35,937 nucleotides of DNA from a virus. Where the stretch lies: positions 1-35,937 of IMG/VR virus record IMGVR_UViG_3300027779_000080; one strand, given 5' to 3'. Positions 8,114 to 30,345 of this stretch are shown one piece after another. The notes under the pieces are model-generated. The model was given only the letters and a program-made list of their open reading frames with translations, made no database searches and was not told the DNA's origin. Within the stretch, counting starts at the first letter, position 1. Each line of letters starts with the position of its first letter. The position numbers were made by a program, and so were the translations under genes.

Positions 8114-8296
8114 TTGGAGAAGAAATACCGCAATAAAATATCACAGGTTTGCCCTCAATGTGATAAAAGTGTTTTAGCAATACGCATTAACGGTTTTTAT
8201 TCAGGTGATCGGGATAGAGTCTTCTTATGGGAATGCCCTCTTTGTGCTAATGTATGGCGGGGCGCAAGACCCGAATTAAAGAACACTTTGATTTAA
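8114..8296 (+). CDS. Small zinc-ribbon protein
   Basis: A 60-residue protein with a TTG start at 8114; GAGGTG at 8102-8107 lies 6 bases upstream, which supports the unusual start. It has two zinc-knuckle pairs, CPQC (residues 13-16) and CPLC (41-44), spaced 24 residues apart as in a single zinc ribbon, with the second one followed by NVWRG. It is the last gene of the rightward unit and ends only 3 bases before the stop of the convergent leftward unit. Function is unknown; small zinc ribbons of this kind can bind nucleic acid or partner proteins. Confidence 0.7.
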   Translation: MEKKYRNKISQVCPQCDKSVLAIRINGFYSGDRDRVFLWECPLCANVWRGARPELKNTLI

Positions 8297-8299
8297 GTT

Positions 8300-9988
8300 T
8301 CACCTATTTGAAGACGCTCTTGTACCACCAGCACCCAATTGCCTTCGCATGGCTGGTCTAAAGTTTCCTCTCGCTTGATTTCGCTTGTATCTTTTTTGGG
8401 TACGCTCTCTCTTTACTTTGCGCCCTATGCCCCATGCTTTTGCTTTACCCTGCCTGTATGGTCGGTCACTGATATTGCTTCGTGAATAGCCTTTGAATTT
8501 GCCCTTTTTTGTAATAGAATCCCAAGCGGTCTTAAACGGGTCTGCTGATGCGGCTATGTCATGCCAGTCGGCATTACTATTGCTGGTGCAGGCATCCCAT
8601 TCTGCTAAAATGCGTTTATCTCTTTCAGCCACCCTTCGGTGATTATCCATATTTGTATGTGTTCCTGTACCCATTGGCGTTTCTAACATTAGTCTAAAAT
8701 TATCACAAGGCAACTTCGCCAAACTATCTCTCAAAGTTTGAGCATTTCCGGGAGATAAATTACCAGATTCAGTCCACGCTTGAGCCACTTTTTCTTTTGC
8801 CTCCGTACAACAAGGGTCGTCTTTTTCATCCATTTGGACTTCGGGCAATTCTTCTTCGCGTTCCATGTGATCAAGTGCGCTTGTTTGTGAAAATGCAATT
8901 GCATTTGCTTGTTCTGGACTTATTTCATCCATCCAACCTTTGACAAGTAAATCCCATGTGGATTCAAAGGGGTTTTCACTTTTTTTTGGAAACCATTCAA
9001 AATCATCTATGTTGTGCATAACGGCTTCTGGCTTTACATTTTTACCTTGATTATAATTATTATATCTGTCTGGCCGATTTATGATTTCAGTTTTAAAACC
9101 ATGTTTCTCATACATTGGGGTGACGGATGGATGATTAAAAGCAACAATTGGCATTCCTTCTGCCGCCTGTTCGCCTACTAATTCGGCCAATAATTTTTGT
9201 TGTTCTTCACTCATATTATGGTCGTAATTAGCCCCCTCCCCGCCAGCATAAGGTGAATCAATCACCCCAAAATCATCATCCGGATCCATAGGTAATTTGA
9301 AAAAATCTTCAAAGGACATACCGCCTCTTATGTCATAATTTTCATAAACTGGCGCAAACTCCCCCAAATCTCTTTGTTTAGGTTCTTTAAATTCCGGTGC
9401 ATTTGATGTTTGATTTGCATATCCTTGAGAATTCATACGGGGGTCGCCTCTCCATGCTAACCTTTGAAATTGCGCCCATTTTTCAATCATCTTTCTATGC
9501 TCGTCTGGTGTCAAGCCACCTGCTAACTTCTCTCTTCTGATAAAATCATTTAAAGAATCAGGCTGTAAGTTTTTCCAAGAAGTATCAAATTTTCCTTGTT
9601 TCCTCCCCCTCGGCGTTCCGCCTCGTATTTGTTCGTAATAGGTTTTATTGTCAATCACTCCATCTTCATTAAGAAAGGGTTCGTTGTCCACGACCATATC
9701 ATTATCCTTTATGCGGTTAAAATAATCGCCGACAAATCGGTTATAATCTGCAACCAAAGCCCTGCCACCGGGATTTATATTTGAAGAAACATTTAACCCC
9801 CCCATAAAAGGTTCAAGGGTTCTTCTCAAACCGCCTGTTTTTTTAGAAGGAGTCTGTGAAAACATACGGCGTAATGGGCCATTATAACGGCGATGGTTTT
9901 TGCTACCAGTGTATTTAGTCGGCCCATCAAACCTTTTCCCAGAAAAATCATTCCGAATTGATTCAAATTGTTTCGGGTCTATCGGCAT
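8300..9988 (-). CDS. D12-class (Dam-like) DNA adenine methyltransferase with two tag motifs and a basic tail
   Basis: Starts at ATG 9988 (562 residues) behind GAGGGG at 9993-9998; a GTG at 10000 gives four more residues but lacks such a site. The N-terminal domain has the S-adenosylmethionine motif LEPFMGGLNV (EPFMGG at residues 59-64) followed by ALVADYNRFVGDYFNRIK, and the catalytic motif DSPY (244-247, normally DPPY), then MYEKHGF. This is the D12/Dam N6-adenine methyltransferase layout. After the enzyme come about 230 residues not found in ordinary Dam proteins: two copies of the motif shared with the next five genes, NPFESTWDLLVK (339-350) and DPFKTAWDSITKK (483-495), separated by a helical Cys-containing stretch, and a C-terminal tail very rich in Arg and Lys (from about 495). 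The tail suggests nucleic-acid binding. Co-packaging or docking of the enzyme through the tags is inference. Confidence 0.75.
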   Translation of the reverse strand: MPIDPKQFESIRNDFSGKRFDGPTKYTGSKNHRRYNGPLRRMFSQTPSKKTGGLRRTLEPFMGGLNVSSNINPGGRALVADYNRFVGDYFNRIKDNDMVVDNEPFLNEDGVIDNKTYYEQIRGGTPRGRKQGKFDTSWKNLQPDSLNDFIRREKLAGGLTPDEHRKMIEKWAQFQRLAWRGDPRMNSQGYANQTSNAPEFKEPKQRDLGEFAPVYENYDIRGGMSFEDFFKLPMDPDDDFGVIDSPYAGGEGANYDHNMSEEQQKLLAELVGEQAAEGMPIVAFNHPSVTPMYEKHGFKTEIINRPDRYNNYNQGKNVKPEAVMHNIDDFEWFPKKSENPFESTWDLLVKGWMDEISPEQANAIAFSQTSALDHMEREEELPEVQMDEKDDPCCTEAKEKVAQAWTESGNLSPGNAQTLRDSLAKLPCDNFRLMLETPMGTGTHTNMDNHRRVAERDKRILAEWDACTSNSNADWHDIAASADPFKTAWDSITKKGKFKGYSRSNISDRPYRQGKAKAWGIGRKVKRERTQKRYKRNQARGNFRPAMRRQLGAGGTRASSNR

Positions 9989-9996
9989 AAAACCCC

Positions 9997-10329
9997 TCAC
10001 TTGATTTTACTTTTATCTTTCTTAGGAGTCGGCAGTTTCGGTGCTGGCTTTTGTCCTCTATCAGATTTATAGCCCCACTTCATTTTCTTTTTTTCAATGT
10101 CGGAACGGAGAATTTGATAATTTTTATTATTGCGCTGTGAAGGTTTTGTCTGTCTTTGTTTCCCGGTTGGAGTCTTCATATAACCGCATGATTTACAAGG
10201 AAGTGCGCCTCCTTGGTTATCGCATTCGCGGCATTTTTGGCTACCTGCCTTTGCATCTGGTGAAGGAGATTTTACCCTGTTTATTTGGGTTTTAACTATC
10301 TCCCAGCCGGTATCAAATGCTTCACTCAT
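9997..10329 (-). CDS. Small zinc-binding protein with N-terminal AFxTGWxxxK tag
   Basis: I place the start at ATG 10329, which overlaps the previous stop as TAATG, giving 110 residues; a TTG at 10350 in the same frame is less likely. The tag AFDTGWEIVK occupies residues 4-13, right at the N-terminus. It is followed by two CxxC pairs (CREC and CKSC, 9 residues between them) that form a zinc knuckle, and then by a very Lys/Arg/Pro-rich tail ending KKDKSKIK. The basic tail, like that of the downstream methyltransferase, suggests binding to DNA or RNA. Belongs to the six-gene tag cluster. The family is not recognised. Confidence 0.7.
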   Translation of the reverse strand: MSEAFDTGWEIVKTQINRVKSPSPDAKAGSQKCRECDNQGGALPCKSCGYMKTPTGKQRQTKPSQRNNKNYQILRSDIEKKKMKWGYKSDRGQKPAPKLPTPKKDKSKIK

Positions 10330-10853
10330 TATACATTTTCCCCTTGCCAAGTTTTCACATCTTCATCATGTTCATCCACACATTCATAGTGCGCCCAATT
10401 ACCTGTCAAATGATCATACACACCCAATGGATTACCACAAAGGCTACAATCACACCTTCTCGCCGATTTCACAACCGCCCAGCCAGTGTTTAATGCCATT
10501 GGCTCGCTTGCTTCTATATTGCTTCTCCATCTATCATCATCTTCATCATCAGACCGTTCAGGGTTCATAGGAAACGGAGTATGAAACTCTTCCACATTGA
10601 CATCATCGTGTGAACCTGTGTAGGTTTTGCCCATGCGGTTCATTGTATCTTCAACAGACCAACCACTATTCAACATCAAATCCACCGCTTTTCGTTCCCC
10701 CGTTTCAGATCGGCCTGCGGCATCTATCGCTTGGATAAGGCGCACAAGCGGTAATCTATCACCGGCCTCTTTAGCACGACCAGCCGCCCAAATGTGACCC
10801 CATGAAGGCATCTCTTTTATTACAGTCCAGCCGGTTTCAAATGCTTTTGTCAT
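10329..10853 (-). CDS. Protein with two AFxTGWxxxK tags and a C-terminal zinc site
   Basis: Starts at ATG 10853 (174 residues), 2 bases after the previous stop and behind GGAG; a TTG at 10859 is the alternative. One tag, KAFETGWTVIK, is at residues 3-13 and a second, ALNTGWAVVK, is at 120-129. Between them is a helical domain containing LPLVRLIQAIDAAGR and LNSGWSVEDTMNRMGKTY, then an acidic linker (RSDDEDDD). The second tag is followed at once by CDCSLCG and a later HYEC, probably one zinc site. The two tags at opposite ends of a folded domain argue that the motif is a portable linear element rather than part of a fold. Function is unknown. Confidence 0.7.
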   Translation of the reverse strand: MTKAFETGWTVIKEMPSWGHIWAAGRAKEAGDRLPLVRLIQAIDAAGRSETGERKAVDLMLNSGWSVEDTMNRMGKTYTGSHDDVNVEEFHTPFPMNPERSDDEDDDRWRSNIEASEPMALNTGWAVVKSARRCDCSLCGNPLGVYDHLTGNWAHYECVDEHDEDVKTWQGENV

Positions 10854-10855
10854 CT

Positions 10856-11404
10856 TCAATCACTCCCGTTTCCTAACTTGTCTTTTAATCTGCGCCGCCA
10901 ATTCTCTTCATTTTCTCTTCGCAATTTTTCTTGGTGCGTTCTCATTTCTCGCTGTGCTAACCACTCTCTTGTTGTTGCAGGTTCGGGTTTTTCGGGCGTT
11001 CCGCCCCATGTGTAAGGAGGCGGTCTTTCACCGGACATATCTTGATCATGCCTGTATGCAATATCTATATCAGGATAACGATTTTTGTGTTTTTGATAAC
11101 CATCAGGAGAAGATAGATGCCTACGCTCATTACCTTCTTCATCAAGATACCCTAACAATTCATCCATAACAACATTATCCCATTTGCGCTGTCCGTAGCG
11201 CACTTGGCGGCCTTCAACCATGCGTTTTCCTTCTTCAACCTTCTCTCTCGGCCCTTGCCATTCTTTCACCACAAGCCAACCGGTGCTGAACGCTCGGTCA
11301 CTGGATTTTTTAACTTTGTTTTGGTCGCATCCATCACAAACGCCAAAATTGAATTTCAATTCATCTTCGTGGGTATCATTTCCACAACGATTACATTCGC
11401 TCAT
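10856..11404 (-). CDS. Zinc-ribbon protein with AFSTGWLVVK tag and charged helical tail
   Basis: A 182-residue protein starting at ATG 11404 with GAGGTG ending 5 bases upstream. The N-terminal zinc ribbon uses CNRCGND (residues 4-10) and CDGCD (23-27). The tag DRAFSTGWLVVK follows at 36-47. The remaining 130 residues are strongly charged, with a Pro-rich stretch (ERPPPYTWGGTPEKPEP) and a C-terminal helix rich in Glu and Arg that could be a coiled coil (REWLAQREMRTHQEKLRREN). The DNA encoding the tag is close to that of the gene at 11693-12157 (30 of 35 bases), pointing to a recent duplication. Function is unknown. Confidence 0.7.
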   Translation of the reverse strand: MSECNRCGNDTHEDELKFNFGVCDGCDQNKVKKSSDRAFSTGWLVVKEWQGPREKVEEGKRMVEGRQVRYGQRKWDNVVMDELLGYLDEEGNERRHLSSPDGYQKHKNRYPDIDIAYRHDQDMSGERPPPYTWGGTPEKPEPATTREWLAQREMRTHQEKLRRENEENWRRRLKDKLGNGSD

Positions 11405-11408
11405 CTAT

Positions 11409-11690
11409 TCACCTCATTGACGGATGCACCGTATTTCTCGTACCGCATTCACAAGTCTTCTGTTCCCATTCTGCATCGGTCATCTTTTTCCCACAGTTTC
11501 GGCATTGTAATGGATTTTTAGTCCAGCCTTCATCATCGCTAAGTCCATCCCATGATTTCTTTGAAATTAGATCCCAACCGGCACTGAACGCTTTGTCCAA
11601 TGTTGAGGGGTCTTTTGTATCGGATTCACGCTTTCCTCCGCAAGCAACACATGGCTCTTTGCCGACTCTCCTATGAGTGCATTTGCTCAT
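11409..11690 (-). CDS. Small double zinc-site protein with AFSAGWDLISKK tag
   Basis: I prefer ATG 11690 (93 residues) to the GTG at 11696 because GAGGTG lies 7 bases before it. A first Cys/His cluster (CTHRR, then CVACGG) is followed by the tag LDKAFSAGWDLISKK (residues 31-45). Then comes a zinc ribbon with CRNCGKKM and CECG. The tag sits between two zinc sites. The previous gene's stop (11693) lies just upstream, so the genes are translationally coupled. No family is recognised; it resembles nothing but its tag-bearing neighbours. Confidence 0.7.
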   Translation of the reverse strand: MSKCTHRRVGKEPCVACGGKRESDTKDPSTLDKAFSAGWDLISKKSWDGLSDDEGWTKNPLQCRNCGKKMTDAEWEQKTCECGTRNTVHPSMR

Positions 11691-11692
11691 CT

Positions 11693-12157
11693 TCACTCAC
11701 CTCTATACTTTCCAAAAGGAGTATTATATGGGCAGGTATAGCCCGATTCTTTCGCTTCACAAGGAGTATCTGCGTCACACCAAGGGCATTGACCGCCTCT
11801 AACCACTTCTTCTGGTTCATACTCGCAATCGCATTGATTAGGATCGCTTGAGTCATCTGCACCCCAACCGGCGCAGTTAGAGCAAACTGGCCCTTTCATT
11901 ATAGACCAACCCGCGCTGAATGCTCGGTCATTGGATTTCTTCTTATCCCAAAGACCCATAGATGAATGAGGACTCATTCTTTGTCCATCGGAGTCATATT
12001 CTTTTTCTTCTGATAGGTTTGGGCCATGCTTATCGCAATAGGTGTGTCCATCTTCATCGCTTCTCATTTCACCGGGATCGCAATCAATACAAAATTGGCC
12101 ATCGCATTCCCAACATTCATGCACTTCGTCTTCTGTTCCACACGATTCGCACTTCAT
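11693..12157 (-). CDS. Multi-zinc-finger protein with AFSAGWSIMK tag
   Basis: A 154-residue protein with an ATG start at 12157. The N-terminus holds a treble-clef or B-box-like cluster: CESCG (residues 3-7), CWEC (15-18), CIDC (23-26) and C-x-x-H (41-44). The tag NDRAFSAGWSIMK is at 76-88. It is followed directly by further cysteines (CSNC, CDC, CPWC, and a final C-E-A...C-P), probably one or two more zinc sites. This is the first-transcribed member of the six-gene tag cluster. The eukaryote-like zinc cluster suggests protein-protein interaction, but that is inference. Confidence 0.7.
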   Translation of the reverse strand: MKCESCGTEDEVHECWECDGQFCIDCDPGEMRSDEDGHTYCDKHGPNLSEEKEYDSDGQRMSPHSSMGLWDKKKSNDRAFSAGWSIMKGPVCSNCAGWGADDSSDPNQCDCEYEPEEVVRGGQCPWCDADTPCEAKESGYTCPYNTPFGKYRGE

Positions 12158-12197
12158 ATATAGCCCGCCCTACTCTCCATCAGCCAATACATCATAT

Positions 12198-12842
12198 CTA
12201 AAACTTATGCGGAATGGAGATAGATTTGCCAGTTTCCTTATCAGGAAAAGTGATTTGATTTTTTTGATATATGGACTGTGCAGTTTCCGTAATCAAAAAC
12301 ACATCAAACTTCACGCTTCTTAGAACAGACCTTGTGCCACCTCGCCTCCAATCCCTTATGCGGGAATACAATGTAGTGAGGTATTGTGGTCTAAAATTAA
12401 TATGTTTTCGCCATCCTTTATTCGCCTTGTATAATGTTTCAAGCGGTATTCTTTCAGTCTTTGAAACATAGTGTTTTTCCGTAGCCTCTATACAGTCTGA
12501 TAGAAGGTCTTTTGTTAGAGTATCTATTTTCACTTCTAAGAAGTGTTCTATCAGTGGCAAATCAAATTTGGCTACATCGTAACCAATGATCAATTCCGCC
12601 GCCTCTAACGCTTCTATGAAGTCTGTTTTACTCGTTCCTCCCTCAATCCCTATGCTATCTAAAGGCAAACTCATAGTTTCATTAGCAATAAAAATCTTTA
12701 TTCCTCCCCCGTCATCGTAAATTACAAAATCTAAATCTCCTTCTTCAATGATGCCGCGCCAGCCTCCCGACATATCGGCATTAACACTATCTGAAAAAGC
12801 CTTCAATACAAGATATTTATTTTCCTCTAACCAATTATTCAT
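12198..12842 (-). CDS. RNase H-fold / DEDD 3'-5' exonuclease-like protein
   Basis: A 214-residue protein starting at ATG 12842 and overlapping the previous gene by 8 bases. The segment LIIGYDVAKFDLPLIEHF (residues 84-101) matches the second conserved block of DnaQ/RNase H-like exonucleases, where the wording is usually 'GyNv.kFDlP.l'. LSDCIEATEKHYVSKTE and IPLETLYKANKGW then match the 'dL...l....~L~~la' segment, and a late FDVFLITETAQSIYQ resembles the third block containing the last Asp. The first acidic block, normally FDxET, is only seen as DFVIYDDGG, so catalysis may be altered. Its place beside helicase, primase and nuclease genes fits proofreading or end processing. The fold call is moderate; activity is uncertain. 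Confidence 0.5.
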   Translation of the reverse strand: MNNWLEENKYLVLKAFSDSVNADMSGGWRGIIEEGDLDFVIYDDGGGIKIFIANETMSLPLDSIGIEGGTSKTDFIEALEAAELIIGYDVAKFDLPLIEHFLEVKIDTLTKDLLSDCIEATEKHYVSKTERIPLETLYKANKGWRKHINFRPQYLTTLYSRIRDWRRGGTRSVLRSVKFDVFLITETAQSIYQKNQITFPDKETGKSISIPHKF

Positions 12843-13503
12843 TTTTCCACCCTATGTTTATTTTTGTTTGTTTTGCTTCTTCAATTTTCTTTTGTTCATC
12901 TTGCCGATCAACATTCATTCTGCTTGCCGTATAATTTTTGTTTGAATTATTATGTTCTAAATGGGCAAACATTATGTCTTTTTCAAGTAGTCTATGGCAA
13001 AAAAATGAATTGTTAAACGAAGCGGTATTGCCGTCAAATGATACCTTTTTATCAACAATTAACAATTGAAGTGAACGCCCAGCGTTTTGATGCTCAATGA
13101 AAAACGAACCTACTACTTGATAATTTATAATTGGCAATCCCATAACCATAGCAAAAGGTTTGCCTAATTCAAATAAACGCTTAAAGACTTCTAATTTTTT
13201 AGTGAATGGTGGATTTGAAACGATGCAATCATAATGCTCATCAGGTTCATATTCAAAGAAATCTTGTCCACTCCAAATGTGACTATAAATCACCTTAAAT
13301 CCCGCATCTCTCAAACATAAAACAAATTCACTGTTTTCAGTATCAAAAGGACACCAAATAGTAATGTCTTTGGAGGGAATATCAAGTGTTCTTGGATTAC
13401 ATTTCAAAAAAGGAATAATGGCATTGACTAAAATGGGCGGAGTATAATACTCGTCTTTTTCATTCCATGACGATTTACGCAACCAAGTGTGGTCTTCAAC
13501 CAT
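12835..13503 (-). CDS. Phage-type DNA N6-adenine methyltransferase (NPPF)
   Basis: A 222-residue protein with ATG 13503 behind GGAGG. The N-terminus EKDEYYTPP is the usual opening of phage 'N-6-adenine methyltransferase' proteins. WCPFDTENSEF (residues 50-60) and VIYSHIWSGQDFFEY (71-85) form the cofactor-binding part, and DCIVSNPPF (92-100) is the catalytic motif IV. The NPPF is followed by KRLFELGKPFAMVMGLP, typical for the family. The C-terminus is a Lys/Glu-rich helix. It sits in the replication block. It probably modifies viral DNA, either against host restriction or for timing of replication; its target site cannot be read from sequence. No partner endonuclease is adjacent. Confidence 0.75.
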   Translation of the reverse strand: MVEDHTWLRKSSWNEKDEYYTPPILVNAIIPFLKCNPRTLDIPSKDITIWCPFDTENSEFVLCLRDAGFKVIYSHIWSGQDFFEYEPDEHYDCIVSNPPFTKKLEVFKRLFELGKPFAMVMGLPIINYQVVGSFFIEHQNAGRSLQLLIVDKKVSFDGNTASFNNSFFCHRLLEKDIMFAHLEHNNSNKNYTASRMNVDRQDEQKKIEEAKQTKINIGWKNE

Positions 13504-13505
13504 AC

Positions 13506-15011
13506 CTATTCCTCCATCCCTATGAACAACCTTCTGCCTGATTTTATTTTCACCATTAATTTACCGGCAATCATCTTGTCAAGCCTTCTTTCAGCCGTTC
13601 TTTCAGCAACGCCCTCCAATTGCGAATACTGTTTGCATAACTCGGTCTTTGAAACAACCTCTCGCCCGCTTCTCTTATCCACTACTTTTTTACATCTATT
13701 GTATGTCTTTTTCCATGAATGTGTTGCCGCTTCACGCTTCTTTGATTCCTTGAAGTCTTGTTTAGCCTCAAGCCAAATCGTCAAATTGTGTAAATTGTCA
13801 TAAATAATTTCAGTCGCCATCATTATATGATCTGCGGTAATGACCGTTTTGCTCATGGTGGCCGCTATGATATTTGCAAAAATGATAGTATAATTCTCAA
13901 CATTAGGAATAAAAGTCATCGCAGTTTCTCGTATGTTTTCATTTTGAATCCCCTTTACCAATTCATAATAGTCATCAACCGCATTCAATAAAGCGGCGTG
14001 ATAATTCGGGCCAACAGTGAAGAGAAGACCTGCATTATTTATTGAGCAATCCTCCTTTTCAGAATCGCTGTAATCATTCCAATCTTCTTGGGTGATATTT
14101 GCAACATCAAACAACCGTTCTTTTATTTCGGTTTGAATGTTTAATAAGAATCCTCCTAAGTCTTCATAAGACCATAAACGGTCAGGAACGGGAACATAGA
14201 CCCCCGACATACGATGTTCGCTTGTTGTTTGTCTTTGCTCAACCCCTACATCATTTTGGTACAGAAATACCCGTTGAAAGAAACCCTTCTCAAGAACATG
14301 GTGCATAATGTCCTTTGGAGGGTATGTTGTCATCCATAAAGATACACCCGATGGAGTCCGAACCGAACCCCCTACTAAGTGCTTAACAAGAACATTCGTC
14401 GCAGAACCAATCGGGGCCATCGCTTGTTGAAGGTATAGGATTTTGTCACTGAAATATGATTTTGCATCATTCAATAGAACACTGGCCTCATCAAAAAGAA
14501 GAGTTTTGTAACCGTTTAAAAGACCGGGAACAGTTTCAAACTCCTTTTCCCCTGTTGGTTTCCCCTCATCATCATAAATCATTTTTTCAACAACAGTTCC
14601 GATTAATTTAGCATCTGAACCTGCACTGAATTGCTCTCCTTCAATGTTACAGGCTTTCAATAGTTTTTCTGTAAATTCGTATGCAATTGATTTTCCTGTG
14701 CGAGATTGTTGAATCCAATATACATGAACCCTGCAATCAATATGTGCGCCATGAATCGGGATCCTCATATAAGGTGCGAGGACTTGCCCACATACAAAGA
14801 AATATGATAACAAACCGGCGTATTCATTGAAGAATGACACAGTATTAAATCGTTCAATATAAGAGCGCAAGAATTTACTACCCTCCCAAGGAGATGTTAC
14901 TAAAGAATAGTCATCCCACTTTCTGCCGCCTGCATCCGTTGTCGGTTTTAACATCATATCATTCACTCCATTCCGAGCCACAGGGGGTTGCATACATAAA
15001 GCCTCATTCAA
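13506..15011 (-). CDS. AAA+ replicative helicase-like ATPase (MCM/DUF3987-like) with winged helix
   Basis: A 501-residue P-loop protein. The start is a TTG at 15011 that overlaps the previous stop; the ATG at 14993 is a good alternative. Walker A is QQSRTGKS (residues 101-108), with Gln where the first Gly usually is. Walker B is LLFDEAS (171-177). A sensor-1-like WMTTYPP (226-232) follows, and GFFQRVFLY (243-251) puts an Arg where the arginine finger of hexameric AAA+ helicases sits. The C-terminal 60 residues (SKTELCKQYSQLEGVAERTA onward) look like a winged helix. The order resembles MCM-type helicases and the DUF3987 phage/plasmid helicases. Next to the primase and nuclease genes, the best call is the viral replicative helicase. 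Confidence 0.6.
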   Translation of the reverse strand: MNEALCMQPPVARNGVNDMMLKPTTDAGGRKWDDYSLVTSPWEGSKFLRSYIERFNTVSFFNEYAGLLSYFFVCGQVLAPYMRIPIHGAHIDCRVHVYWIQQSRTGKSIAYEFTEKLLKACNIEGEQFSAGSDAKLIGTVVEKMIYDDEGKPTGEKEFETVPGLLNGYKTLLFDEASVLLNDAKSYFSDKILYLQQAMAPIGSATNVLVKHLVGGSVRTPSGVSLWMTTYPPKDIMHHVLEKGFFQRVFLYQNDVGVEQRQTTSEHRMSGVYVPVPDRLWSYEDLGGFLLNIQTEIKERLFDVANITQEDWNDYSDSEKEDCSINNAGLLFTVGPNYHAALLNAVDDYYELVKGIQNENIRETAMTFIPNVENYTIIFANIIAATMSKTVITADHIMMATEIIYDNLHNLTIWLEAKQDFKESKKREAATHSWKKTYNRCKKVVDKRSGREVVSKTELCKQYSQLEGVAERTAERRLDKMIAGKLMVKIKSGRRLFIGMEE

Positions 15012-15721
15012 GCCCTACTCATTTTGACCTTTTCTTGAACAATCGCTTCTTCGCTGTTCAATGCTTTCATTATCCTTTCAGCCCGCACTTTGCCTACGCC
15101 TTCACTTTGCATTAGGGTCTTTGCGTCAAGTCCTACTATCTCGGCAACCGAACCATGTTCTTTTAACAACCGTTTAGCAATCGCATCACTACACCCAGCC
15201 GCCCTTAATATGTCCACTCTCATATCTTCGGTTGCTGTTCTTCGCATTACCCTATATGTTGCCGTTGATCTCAAAGTGCCATGTTTTTCAAACCTCTTGC
15301 ATATGAATCTCGCCGCCGTTGATTTGTTTGAAAATGTGATTATTTGAATATCAAAATCATTAGAGAATCTGGCTAATGAACCAGTGTATGATGCAAAAGC
15401 GCGGGCATAAGGTATTTTCCGCCCACCTTTCATGGCCTTTGCTATGTATTGGTCTAATGTACCCCATACTAACAAAATCGGTTGAGCATAGTTATCATCT
15501 AAGTTTTGTAATTGCCGTTCTAAATGACCTGAATAAAGGCTACCTAAATAATCTTCAATAGATTTTGCTTCAATGCCCACCGATGCAAATGTATAATCTG
15601 TTAAGTGTGTTTGACGCACTTCGTATTTCAATTTGTTTTTGTCACAGTATTTTATGACTAACTGTTCCAGACCTGAACGCTCTCGGTTATCAATAAAGAG
15701 TATTTTATCATTTTTTGTCAT
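15008..15721 (-). CDS. ERCC4-type nuclease (XPF/Mus81/Hef family) with helix-hairpin-helix
   Basis: I choose ATG 15721 (237 residues); a TTG at 15751 would add ten residues before the domain. The catalytic site is complete: FIDNRER (residues 9-15) and GIEAKSIEDYL (49-59) give the ERCC4 pattern V/I-D-x-R-E ... E-x-K-x3-D. The following YSGHLERQLQNL and YAQPILLVWG strands are typical. The C-terminal half has tandem helix-hairpin-helix motifs (AGCSDAIAKRLLKEHGSVAE and SEGVGKVRAERIMKAL), which bind branched or single-stranded DNA. Archaeal XPF/Hef proteins cut forks, flaps and nicked junctions. Here it likely processes replication or recombination intermediates for the virus. No helicase domain is fused. 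Confidence 0.88.
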   Translation of the reverse strand: MTKNDKILFIDNRERSGLEQLVIKYCDKNKLKYEVRQTHLTDYTFASVGIEAKSIEDYLGSLYSGHLERQLQNLDDNYAQPILLVWGTLDQYIAKAMKGGRKIPYARAFASYTGSLARFSNDFDIQIITFSNKSTAARFICKRFEKHGTLRSTATYRVMRRTATEDMRVDILRAAGCSDAIAKRLLKEHGSVAEIVGLDAKTLMQSEGVGKVRAERIMKALNSEEAIVQEKVKMSRA

Positions 15722-18199: not shown

Positions 18200-19366
18200 T
18201 CATTCAATTACATCATGCGATTCTTTGTCATCGGGATGATCAAAAGAACCATCTCGTAGTCCTTTCCAGCCATACCAAACTCCGCCATCCTTGTTTCTTT
18301 CAAATATCAAAACCTTTCCCGGAGTCTTCAAAGAAGTGCGGTTTTCAGTGAGAATCGCATAAGCCCGAACAACGCCGGTTAATTCTCCCATGTCGTTTCT
18401 TTCATGCACGATTTCAGAAACGGCTCTTTGTTGTAGCCACTTTTCCGTTCCCTTTAGCCAGTTAGGCACTTCTGCGCCTGCTAATTCGTTTCCGTTTGAG
18501 TCATAGGTGTCTTTTAGGTGCGTAATCAAATAACAATGAATCCCGCTACGGCATAATTCAGTTAATGAAGTCATAGCGGCATTGTATCGGTTTTTACGAA
18601 TGTTCCAATTAAACCGGCCAATCTGGACAGTGGCCTTTTTACCAGCAACCGCAATTCCATCAGCACCCAAATTCAAATCTTCGCACTTCATTGTAGTTTC
18701 ACAAATGTTTAACCAATGGTCTGCACCATCAAAGACAACAGTTTTTAGATAAGGATTAGGCATTTTACCATGTGCTTCAAAATACGCTTCTTGAATATCC
18801 GATTGTTCCTGTGCCGCTAATAATAAATCCATTACCCGTTGATAGGTTTTAGGGAAATCATAAGGTACGCGACTCGGATTCTTATTCAAGACCCAAGGAT
18901 TGATTGTCAAGATATTCTTTTTGCCGTAATGATGTGCGGCTCTTGTTGATTCGCCGCCCATATCAAAATCATAATGATGTATTTCAGCACCATTTTCTAT
19001 TTCTTCTGGAGTTAGGCTATCAAGTGGCGCACCCGTTTTACCGGCTTTCGGCGGTGCGGCCCATCCTAAGAACACATACTGTCGCTGGCGAGGCTTAGAA
19101 GCCCTACGACGCGCAGATTGTATTGAATCCCATGCTGGATTGTTAGATTTAGGCGTTTCTGCAATCGTTTTAACGGGTGAAACAACTACTGTGGCATTTG
19201 CTTGCATTGGTGTTGGTTCTTCGCTAAGATCGCCCTTCGGCCATTCATCAGTGACTATTACTTCAGGAACAGTTTCAACGACTTGTTCCGGTTCATTAAC
19301 CGGCGTAGTAATTGGGTTATTGGTATCAACCGGCGACCATGAATCAAAAAATCCTGTGCCAGCCAT
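18200..19366 (-). CDS. RecA/Sak4-like P-loop ATPase (recombination)
   Basis: A 388-residue protein with ATG 19366 overlapping the previous stop as TAATG. A disordered, acidic and Pro-rich N-terminus of about 95 residues comes first, with a segment NPAWDSIQSARRR (76-89) that weakly resembles the tag motif of the genes at 8.3-12.2 kb. The ATPase core has Walker A PPKAGKTG (105-112), an HYDFDMGGE strand where RecA-like proteins keep their catalytic Glu, Walker B VVFDGADHW (210-218), and a later HCYLITHLKDT strand. This matches the short AAA_24/Sak4 family that promotes strand annealing together with SSB. Its neighbour two genes upstream is an OB-fold candidate SSB, which strengthens the call. 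A RadA-like role is also possible. Confidence 0.65.
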   Translation of the reverse strand: MAGTGFFDSWSPVDTNNPITTPVNEPEQVVETVPEVIVTDEWPKGDLSEEPTPMQANATVVVSPVKTIAETPKSNNPAWDSIQSARRRASKPRQRQYVFLGWAAPPKAGKTGAPLDSLTPEEIENGAEIHHYDFDMGGESTRAAHHYGKKNILTINPWVLNKNPSRVPYDFPKTYQRVMDLLLAAQEQSDIQEAYFEAHGKMPNPYLKTVVFDGADHWLNICETTMKCEDLNLGADGIAVAGKKATVQIGRFNWNIRKNRYNAAMTSLTELCRSGIHCYLITHLKDTYDSNGNELAGAEVPNWLKGTEKWLQQRAVSEIVHERNDMGELTGVVRAYAILTENRTSLKTPGKVLIFERNKDGGVWYGWKGLRDGSFDHPDDKESHDVIE

Positions 19367-28381: not shown

Positions 28382-29995
28382 TCAACCCATTTGAAGACCT
28401 TGATTATTTGGGCCTTCGCTTCGCATCATTATCACATCATCAATACGGAGAATCATTATTGCCGCTTCTGTTGCACTTTTCAGTGCTTGCTTTAAAACCG
28501 ATGCAGGCTCAATAATTAACTTCTCTATGCCATCGCAAACCAAAGCATTTCCAGATTCATCTTCGGTTTCTATTAGTAAAGCGGATTTCCAATTATTTTC
28601 TCTATGTTCTGAACCCATAATCAAAGCAACATCAACGGGATCTAATCCAGCATTCTCGCCAATCGTTTGAGGTATAATCATCATTGATTTACCAAACGCC
28701 TCAACAGCCATCCGTTCTCTTCCTTTTGAAATCTCATGGCTAACCTTTGCGATTTGTGTTGCGATATGTGCATGAGGCGCACCGCCCCCGACAATAATCT
28801 GTGAATCCTTTTGGTATGCTAACCAGCAAACGCCCAGCGCATCATCCAATGCTCTTTCAATTTCAGCCGCTACATGAGGGGTTGAACCGAAGGCAATAAT
28901 TGAAACTGGACTTGGCGTGGCTGTGGAGGCCACCCTGATGAATGGCATATCATAGTCATTAACAACTTGAATTGAAGACTCTCCTAAATCGTCATCGCCC
29001 AAATCAAAAATATCCGATACCATTGTTGCGCCTGTTGCTTTGCATATCGCATCAAGATCAGAACGAACAACCTTCTCAATAACTAATGTTTCGCTTCTGC
29101 GAAGGTAATGAATCGCAAGGTCATCAACGCCCTTCTGTGCGAATACCGCCGCTACTCCCATTGATTCAATGTGCAATACCATTTCTTTGATAGCATTTTC
29201 TTCTTCGGCAAGAAACGCCGCTACTTGAGTCGGGTCTGAAATTTGAACCTGCGCCTCTATTTTGCTTTGCTTTGCTTCTATTGCACAAGACAATACAGCA
29301 ATTTTTCCAATCGCTTCATTCACCATACGAGGGTGTGCCTTATCCTTTTCAAGAGCGACTCCATGAAACAGTGTTGTATCGCCTACGCTACCGCCTGTAA
29401 CTGTCAAAGTTCTAATGTCTTCAAGTGAAGAAACTTCTTGGATAGCAGATACGCAAATTTCGCCCAGCAACTCTTTTGAGGATTCCGCCGATTTCCCGGT
29501 CAATGCTGTCATGGCGATACTCTTCAATGGTATTCCTTCTTCAAACTCAAGGGCTGTTTTTTCTGCGAGATGATTGACTATGGCTAAACTGGCTTCCAAT
29601 CCCTTTCGGTAGCCTGTGGTAATCGTAGTCGGGTGTATTCCCTTCTCAAGCAATTCTTCTGCATTCTTAAGTAATTCAGATGCGAGGACAACGGCTGATG
29701 TTGTGCCATCGTAGCATTGACTCTCTTGAGTCTTTGCGACTTCAACAACCATCTTTGCGGCTGGATGCTCTATCCCGACTTCCCGGAGTATAGTAGCACC
29801 GTCATTAGTGATTATCACTTGACCTGTATTATCAACCAACATTTTATCCATTCCCTTTGGCCCTAATGTTGATCGTACTGCTTCACCAACGGCTCTTGCC
29901 GCACTGATGTTATTTCCTTGAGCATTACGCCCGCGCTTTTGTTGTGTGCCTTCTTGCATAATGAAGATAGGTTGTTGCTGGCCAGATGGTTGCAT
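28382..29995 (-). CDS. Group II chaperonin (thermosome) subunit
   Basis: Start at ATG 29995 (537 residues): GGTG lies 5 bases upstream, and the N-terminus MQPSGQQQPIFIMQEGTQQK matches archaeal thermosomes; upstream codons in frame, including a TTG at 30025, are not expected. Signature segments are LGPKGMDKMLVD (44-55), ITNDGATIL (62-70), IEHPAAKMVVEVAKTQ (75-90) and DGTTSAVVLASELL (96-109), plus IGENAGLDPVDVALIM near the C-terminus. The DGTT aspartate needed for ATP hydrolysis is kept, but the usual Gly before it is Tyr (CYDGTTS). The GGGAxE motif has His in place of Glu (GGGAPH, about residue 404). The C-terminal Gly-Met repeat is short (GLQMG). It probably folds virion or replication proteins in host cells, perhaps mixed with host subunits. 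Confidence 0.95.
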   Translation of the reverse strand: MQPSGQQQPIFIMQEGTQQKRGRNAQGNNISAARAVGEAVRSTLGPKGMDKMLVDNTGQVIITNDGATILREVGIEHPAAKMVVEVAKTQESQCYDGTTSAVVLASELLKNAEELLEKGIHPTTITTGYRKGLEASLAIVNHLAEKTALEFEEGIPLKSIAMTALTGKSAESSKELLGEICVSAIQEVSSLEDIRTLTVTGGSVGDTTLFHGVALEKDKAHPRMVNEAIGKIAVLSCAIEAKQSKIEAQVQISDPTQVAAFLAEEENAIKEMVLHIESMGVAAVFAQKGVDDLAIHYLRRSETLVIEKVVRSDLDAICKATGATMVSDIFDLGDDDLGESSIQVVNDYDMPFIRVASTATPSPVSIIAFGSTPHVAAEIERALDDALGVCWLAYQKDSQIIVGGGAPHAHIATQIAKVSHEISKGRERMAVEAFGKSMMIIPQTIGENAGLDPVDVALIMGSEHRENNWKSALLIETEDESGNALVCDGIEKLIIEPASVLKQALKSATEAAIMILRIDDVIMMRSEGPNNQGLQMG

Positions 29996-30021
29996 ATCCT
30001 CACCCATTGGGCTATTACTTA

Positions 30022-30345
30022 TCAAGGCTCACTTATTCTAATCATTACAGGCCGACACACTATGAATCCTGTGCCTTCGTCTTTATTGCGATGACCTTTT
30101 CGCCAGCCCAATGCTTTCAATTTTTTCTTAGTGACTAAAACTGCAATTCTATAATTCGTGGTGTGGTATGATTGGCGACTAATCATGTTATGACCTGAAC
30201 GCCGACGATACTCTTCTGCAATCAATGGGTAAATATCAGTCATCCAATACACATCGCCAGTTCTTGAATTGATAATATCGGGAATGACTTCACGCATGAT
30301 TTTCATATTGAAGGTCTTGATTCCCCCTCGCCCCATAATTACCAT
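30022..30345 (-). CDS. Small DNA-binding-like basic protein
   Basis: A protein of 107 residues from ATG 30345 (overlap of 7 bases) or 104 from ATG 30336, which has GGATGG 5 bases upstream. The sequence is basic and helical with DVYWMTDIYPLIAEEYRRRS, then SYHTTNYRIAVLVTKKKLKA and a strand end GFIVCRPVMIRISE. The order helix-helix-basic helix-strand resembles a winged helix, so it may be a third regulator of that kind, located just before the thermosome gene. No strict similarity to the other two is visible. The call is tentative. Confidence 0.45.
   Translation of the reverse strand: MVIMGRGGIKTFNMKIMREVIPDIINSRTGDVYWMTDIYPLIAEEYRRRSGHNMISRQSYHTTNYRIAVLVTKKKLKALGWRKGHRNKDEGTGFIVCRPVMIRISEP

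Follow-up and report, generated by a model that had tools for sequence, protein, structure and literature searches.

A short portable peptide tag on unrelated proteins of magroviruses, a candidate address for procapsid loading

The virus contig IMGVR_UViG_3300027779_000080, analysed over its whole length of 35,937 nucleotides (the window), carries eight copies of a short peptide tag, about 10 residues in length, in six consecutive genes at positions 8300–12157. The tag is portable between unrelated proteins, is spread through the order Magrovirales, is under selection as a peptide, lies in genes of the structural-gene strand and is absent from the core proteins of these viruses. On a modest balance of probability it is an amphipathic helix that serves as a procapsid-loading address for a variable set of early-acting proteins; docking of the helix, its receptor, packaging and injection are the steps which we infer. 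The Poseidoniales, the hosts of magroviruses, are among the most abundant archaea of the surface ocean. To our knowledge, no magrovirus has been cultured, and the majority of magrovirus genes are unannotated.

The eight copies, predicted originally by inspection of the DNA in six successive leftward genes, are all present on the minus strand (Table 1) and follow the consensus [AP]-[FL]-x-[TAS]-[GAT]-W-x-h-h-K, where h is hydrophobic. A six-frame regular-expression search of the 35.9 kb yielded no further match to the strict motif. With the likely ATG starts, two of the proteins begin MSEAFDTGW (from 10329) and MTKAFETGW (from 10853), so that the tag of each starts at residue 4. A regular expression near the originally proposed consensus gives 8 matches, compared with a mean of 0.0015 in residue-shuffled window proteins (maximum of 1 in 2000 shuffles). 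The window consensus was derived from the same window sequences, and the independent test is provided by a matrix built only from the tags of other viruses, together with recurrence in other viruses. This matrix selects exactly the same 8 window copies at 8 bits or above, against a shuffle mean of 0.054. The motif is thus not found at the rate expected of random proteins, and shuffling of both the window and a set of 20 contigs rules out chance or composition as its source.

When the motif was searched as a pattern in IMG/VR virus contigs, a check suggested with the original prediction, it was found to recur across the order, with many contigs carrying 2 to 12 copies per 13 kb. In the 20 contigs, whose genes were called by a simple open-reading-frame heuristic, a 10-column matrix yields 229 matches of at least 8 bits versus 1–3 in shuffled proteins. 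The matrix also matches two thermosomes (AFDDxxGVVK), which we regard as false positives; without them, 218 tagged genes fall into 113 unrelated protein clusters, with about 4 to 18 tagged genes per contig; the 19 comparison contigs were selected for containing the motif, and these fractions describe tagged viruses rather than a census. Among 227 copies the tag is N-terminal in 158, internal in 58 and C-terminal in 11. The number of clusters, which include ADP-ribosyltransferase (ART), GNAT-like, methyltransferase and other proteins, and the differing positions of the tag rule out a single paralogous family or fold. The consensus at the level of the order is (M-[TS])-A-F-[DE]-[TAS]-[AG]-W-x-[LVI]-[LVIM]-K, the most frequent N-terminal form being M-[TS]-AFDTAWxLLK; an example of a tag peptide is TAFDTAWDLLKM. 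Twelve contigs were picked by an untagged neighbouring gene, c28, without reference to the motif; within 9 kb of the homologous junction, 9 of these 12 carry a tag that scores 8 bits or more. Single matches in long tape-measure-like proteins of six contigs that lack the magrovirus core gene c0 (L004, L006, L007, L008, L012 and L043) are attributed to chance. Searches of the literature with motif strings found no description of the tag.

All synonymous codons are found at the tag positions, which indicates selection on the tag peptide and rules out a DNA-level element beneath the coding sequence.

The portability of the tag is illustrated by the 566-residue fusion protein of the window, in which a D12 DNA adenine methyltransferase, a Cys domain and a basic C-terminal domain are joined. 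Its residues 1–352, 382–499 and 484/499–566 match three families that are separate in relatives, namely methyltransferases, a Cys-domain protein and a basic protein (up to 71%). In these relatives the tag is located at the end of the methyltransferase, after the Cys domain and at the start of the basic protein. The tag thus lies at the borders of modules. In the closest relatives, L210 and L211, the methyltransferase and basic parts are linked by a single tag (ASEDPFEQAWGLITK), and an additional tag-like sequence is present at the N-terminus.

The AlphaFold model of the fusion, for which the alignment contained only methyltransferase and basic-domain relatives, is mostly confident in the methyltransferase core (about 70–94). 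The first tag (residues 344–354) lies in a stretch at confidence 30–40 and the second (residues 488–498) near 45–50, low confidence being no proof of disorder. Each tag is modelled as a lone helix within a linker, away from the folded domains. The proposal that the tag is a portable element and not part of one fold is borne out by the 113 clusters, by the three kinds of position and by the low-confidence linkers of this model, which also speaks against each copy being an internal part of its own fold.

Judged by gene content and organisation, on which the order name is based, the 35.9 kb of the window are part of a magrovirus genome. Magroviruses form the order Magrovirales and are tailed viruses that infect Poseidoniales archaea. 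The window itself contains only the replication, thermosome and fibre parts. It has in common with contigs of up to 107 kb the thermosome, ERCC4, a giant fibre gene and the replication-module clusters c26–c28, c30 and c31. The related contigs encode the large terminase subunit TerL, the portal, the major capsid protein (MCP) and S78 prohead protease families. In these relatives, on which the assignment to the order was judged, the replication and morphogenesis modules run in opposite directions, and archaeal replication genes, HK97-type head genes and a chaperonin are present. Such opposed transcription of replication and morphogenesis genes has been described for Magrovirales (PMC10768690, PMC12999244).

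A small-GTPase-like protein of cluster c4 (YGPSMVGKTT, DIGGQ and NKMD motifs, weak match to a GTP-binding profile; L161:8177–8902) has homologs in 18 of the 20 contigs; across magroviruses its gene separates the tag cassette from the terminase genes. An HMGL-like gene of the HMG-CoA lyase family (L161:10338–11159, Pfam 6.4e-20) is found in most magrovirus contigs and has reportedly been noted already for the family Aoguangviridae.

The tagged genes follow the structural module, with 207 of 220 on the structural-gene strand, opposite to the replication genes. The 13 exceptions comprise the 6 window genes, 4 genes in a contig without a structural reference gene (these lie opposite its replication genes), the 2 thermosome false positives and 1 gene in G013. 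The core clusters (MCP, capsid, portal, TerL, protease, tail and replication) are untagged, save for isolated weak matrix matches. Tagged genes are tightly packed, as 100 of 111 adjacent tagged pairs overlap or abut within 10 nucleotides (median −4), and the longest runs contain 13 consecutive tagged genes. The abundance of tagged genes per genome, their arrangement in tight operons and the capacity of amphipathic helices for self-association would also suit an assembly of the tagged proteins with one another into a multi-enzyme body that needs no separate receptor. This is decidedly unlikely, as the number of tagged genes per contig varies from about 4 to 18 and there is no fixed set of partners.

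The cargo is diverse. Tagged proteins are mostly of single-domain length (median 196 residues) and include Cys-rich proteins of 60–90 residues and basic proteins. The D12 methyltransferases carry a C-terminal tag in several viruses and an internal one in others. One N-tagged family belongs to the ART superfamily by profile (Tpt1/KptA, E 0.0013) and by a fold search on a model of moderate confidence (pLDDT 62), and other tagged proteins show weak matches to GNAT, ASCH and DarT. The HExxH motif is present in 20 of 218 tagged versus 18 of 1316 untagged genes, and [YF]H[GA]T in 18 of 218 versus 8 of 1316. Readings of some tagged proteins as ParB-like or kinase-like come solely from visual inspection and form no part of our claims. 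The tagged set also contains low-complexity proteins of 450–660 residues (G001 69308–71209, G002 13647–15146, G003 34976–36964 and G008 11839–13188), some encoded directly upstream of TerL, and several with repeated SLLPxG motifs at their C-terminal end.

The enzymes of the cargo appear host-directed, and the tag might dock these effectors after expression on one host factor, such as a polymerase, a protease or a ribosome component, with no relation to the virion. The distribution of the motif in cells would agree with such a virus-only ligand. The strict form AFD[TASP]AWxhhK has 20 scattered, chance-like single matches in 84,980 cellular genomes of GTDB, none of them in records titled Poseidoniales, and a host-encoded signal is rejected on this chance level. 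Docking on a host factor is nevertheless unlikely, given that the late-strand operons suggest use at assembly and that basic and Cys-domain proteins without an obvious host target are tagged as well. Among the options named in the original prediction, the one that best matches the gene strand, the enzyme repertoire and the precedents of phages T4 and P1 is loading into the virion or procapsid.

In a helical conformation, F2, A/G5, W6 and L/V9 of the tag fall on one face, an arrangement as in a docking helix. In the proposed mechanism, this hydrophobic face (F, A/G, W and the following hydrophobic residues) would dock into a groove of a single structural protein of the virus. The tag would recruit into the assembling procapsid a fast-changing set of unrelated proteins: ART-fold, GNAT-like and HExxH proteins, DNA methyltransferases, and Cys-rich and basic proteins. 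The tagged proteins would then travel in the virion and enter the host cell together with the DNA, where they may protect the genome and modify the host ahead of viral gene expression.

The F-x-x-[AG] spacing of the tag resembles the BRC/RadA polymerisation motif, and a family conserved in the order is RadA-like by eye (window 18203–19366). Binding of the tag as an FxxA-type, BRC-like motif to this viral recombinase is very improbable. The invariant W and K are foreign to FxxA, the replication and recombination clusters are untagged, and the tagged proteins are not recognisable as recombination factors.

The likeliest docking site for the loading helix would be the capsid interior or a C-terminal extension of the prohead protease. 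The receptor is expected in both virus clades, which leaves as candidates MCP, the protease, the portal, clusters c0–c5, c7 and c9, or the thermosome. Clusters c10 and c11 are undetectable in one tagged clade. Cluster c11 (557 residues, with an internal tag in 7 of 15) was rejected as a universal receptor, as G009, G012, G019 and G025 are tagged without detectable c10 or c11.

The thermosome deserves separate consideration. A virus-encoded subunit of this archaeal chaperonin is located at window positions 28385–30025 and is found in most larger magrovirus contigs, and in 18 of 30 and 15 of 27 tested contigs, many being fragments. The tag might be a client signal that feeds the tagged proteins to the thermosome for folding, similarly to the N-terminus of T4 gp23, which targets fusion proteins to a chaperonin (PMC3012670), and in one clade the tag cassette directly adjoins the thermosome gene. 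This role is rather unlikely, as the adjacency is not kept in G010, G020 and the window, and the large structural proteins that are the usual clients are untagged while Cys-rich proteins of 60–90 residues carry the tag. The absence of a thermosome gene from G013 was not counted here, since that contig probably lacks an end.

Loading of diverse proteins by a short address is well known in phages. The T4 internal proteins are a diverse defence set sharing only a conserved capsid-targeting sequence (CTS), which takes them into the scaffold core (PMC3012670, PMC5694885). Like the CTS of the internal proteins and Alt, the magrovirus tag is a short sequence on unrelated, fast-changing defence or host-modifying proteins, including an ART (PMC3012670, PMC5694885), and it is shared by the 113 clusters. 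The T4 CTS is N-terminal, 10–20 residues long and cut by the prohead protease. Unlike it, the magrovirus tag has another consensus, is carried by up to 18 genes, is also internal or C-terminal (58 and 11 of the 227 copies) and is not followed by conserved residues or a visible cleavage site. For the last two reasons, it falls outside the T4 CTS family, although it would work like the capsid-targeting sequences of T4 and P1. In P1, an N-terminal signal of fewer than 30 residues suffices for capsid targeting of the packaged anti-restriction (Dar) protein DarB (PMC9024508); there is no consensus among the Dar proteins, whereas one is common to all magrovirus cargo.

Encapsulin cargo-loading peptides are also short and load enzymes into HK97-fold shells (PMC8346489, PMC10960027). 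Those peptides bind the inner face of a shell that is a cellular compartment with one or few cargos, and their sequence is different, while docking of the magrovirus tag to a shell is a proposal. ART, GNAT, metallopeptidase and other domains recur in the polyvalent proteins of phages and conjugative elements, for which packaging and injection are presumed (PMC5512222). Their repertoire is similar, and the methyltransferase-Cys-basic fusion of the window is a small multi-domain case, but most magrovirus domains are separate and unified by the tag rather than fused in one chain.

Several points weigh against procapsid loading. The lack of a conserved protease site after the tag differs from the T4 CTS. 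The ART and GNAT assignments depend on profile matches that are weak and on a single moderate model, and the comparison contigs were chosen by the motif. The window cassette is itself on the replication strand, and this is explained by its inversion with respect to the closest relatives, L210 and L211, its flanks retaining the opposite relative orientation. The ends of the cassette have no long inverted repeats, and the inversion may result from misassembly.

Table 1. Tagged genes and tag copies of the window
Feature	Position	Strand	Remarks
566-residue fusion: D12 DNA adenine methyltransferase, tag, Cys domain, tag, basic C-terminal domain	8300–10000	−	Pfam MethyltransfD12, E 1.1e-7
Tag PFKTAWDSITK(K)	8507–8539	−	8.3 bits by matrix
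Tag PFESTWDLLVK	8939–8971	−	10.7 bits
Small Cys-rich tagged protein (MSEAFDTGW...)	9997–10329	−	ATG start chosen; longer TTG form from 10350
Tag AFDTGWEIVK, N-terminal	10291–10320	−	31.3 bits
Two-tag protein, C-terminal Cys cluster	10329–10853	−	ATG start chosen; longer TTG form from 10859
Tag ALNTGWAVVK	10467–10496	−	18.8 bits
Tag AFETGWTVIK, N-terminal	10815–10844	−	26.6 bits
Tagged protein, N-terminal four-Cys zinc site	10856–11404	−	61% identity over 145 residues to tagged G023 84973–85401
Tag AFSTGWLVVK	11264–11293	−	27.7 bits
Small zinc-ribbon-like tagged protein	11409–11690	−	65% over 55 residues to tagged G003 41312–42181
Tag AFSAGWDLISK(K)	11559–11591	−	17.4 bits
Cys-rich tagged protein	11693–12157	−	Tag region similar to tagged zinc proteins of other magroviruses
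Tag AFSAGWSIMK	11894–11923	−	26.8 bits

The cassette is convergent with tail/fibre genes of the opposite strand. Homolog searches of IMG/VR and INPHARED returned no homologs of the tagged proteins of the window; the C-terminal part of the small Cys-rich protein encoded at 9997–10329 matches cluster c23 proteins, which are found near the portal gene. A second DNA methyltransferase (phrog_799, E 3.5e-30) is encoded upstream of the cassette at 12835–13503. At 8114–8296 on the plus strand lies a gene for a zinc-ribbon-like protein of 60 residues with four cysteines, which has about 60% identity to proteins of the same junction in relatives (e.g. L216–L218, L220, L222 and L227).

A single tag groups more than 100 otherwise unknown protein clusters into one candidate class, either virion payload or effectors, and predicts which proteins to seek in virion proteomes. 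There is about an even chance that a universal, position-independent peptide address operates in the whole order and loads into the particle a modular, fast-evolving payload encoded by as many as about 18 genes, roughly 15% of the gene set. This payload would be the archaeal counterpart of the T4 internal proteins and of phage polyvalent proteins, and new cargo would be gained simply by acquiring the tag. If true, capsid-targeting tags would be known from archaeal viruses as well, and there without a fixed position in the protein.

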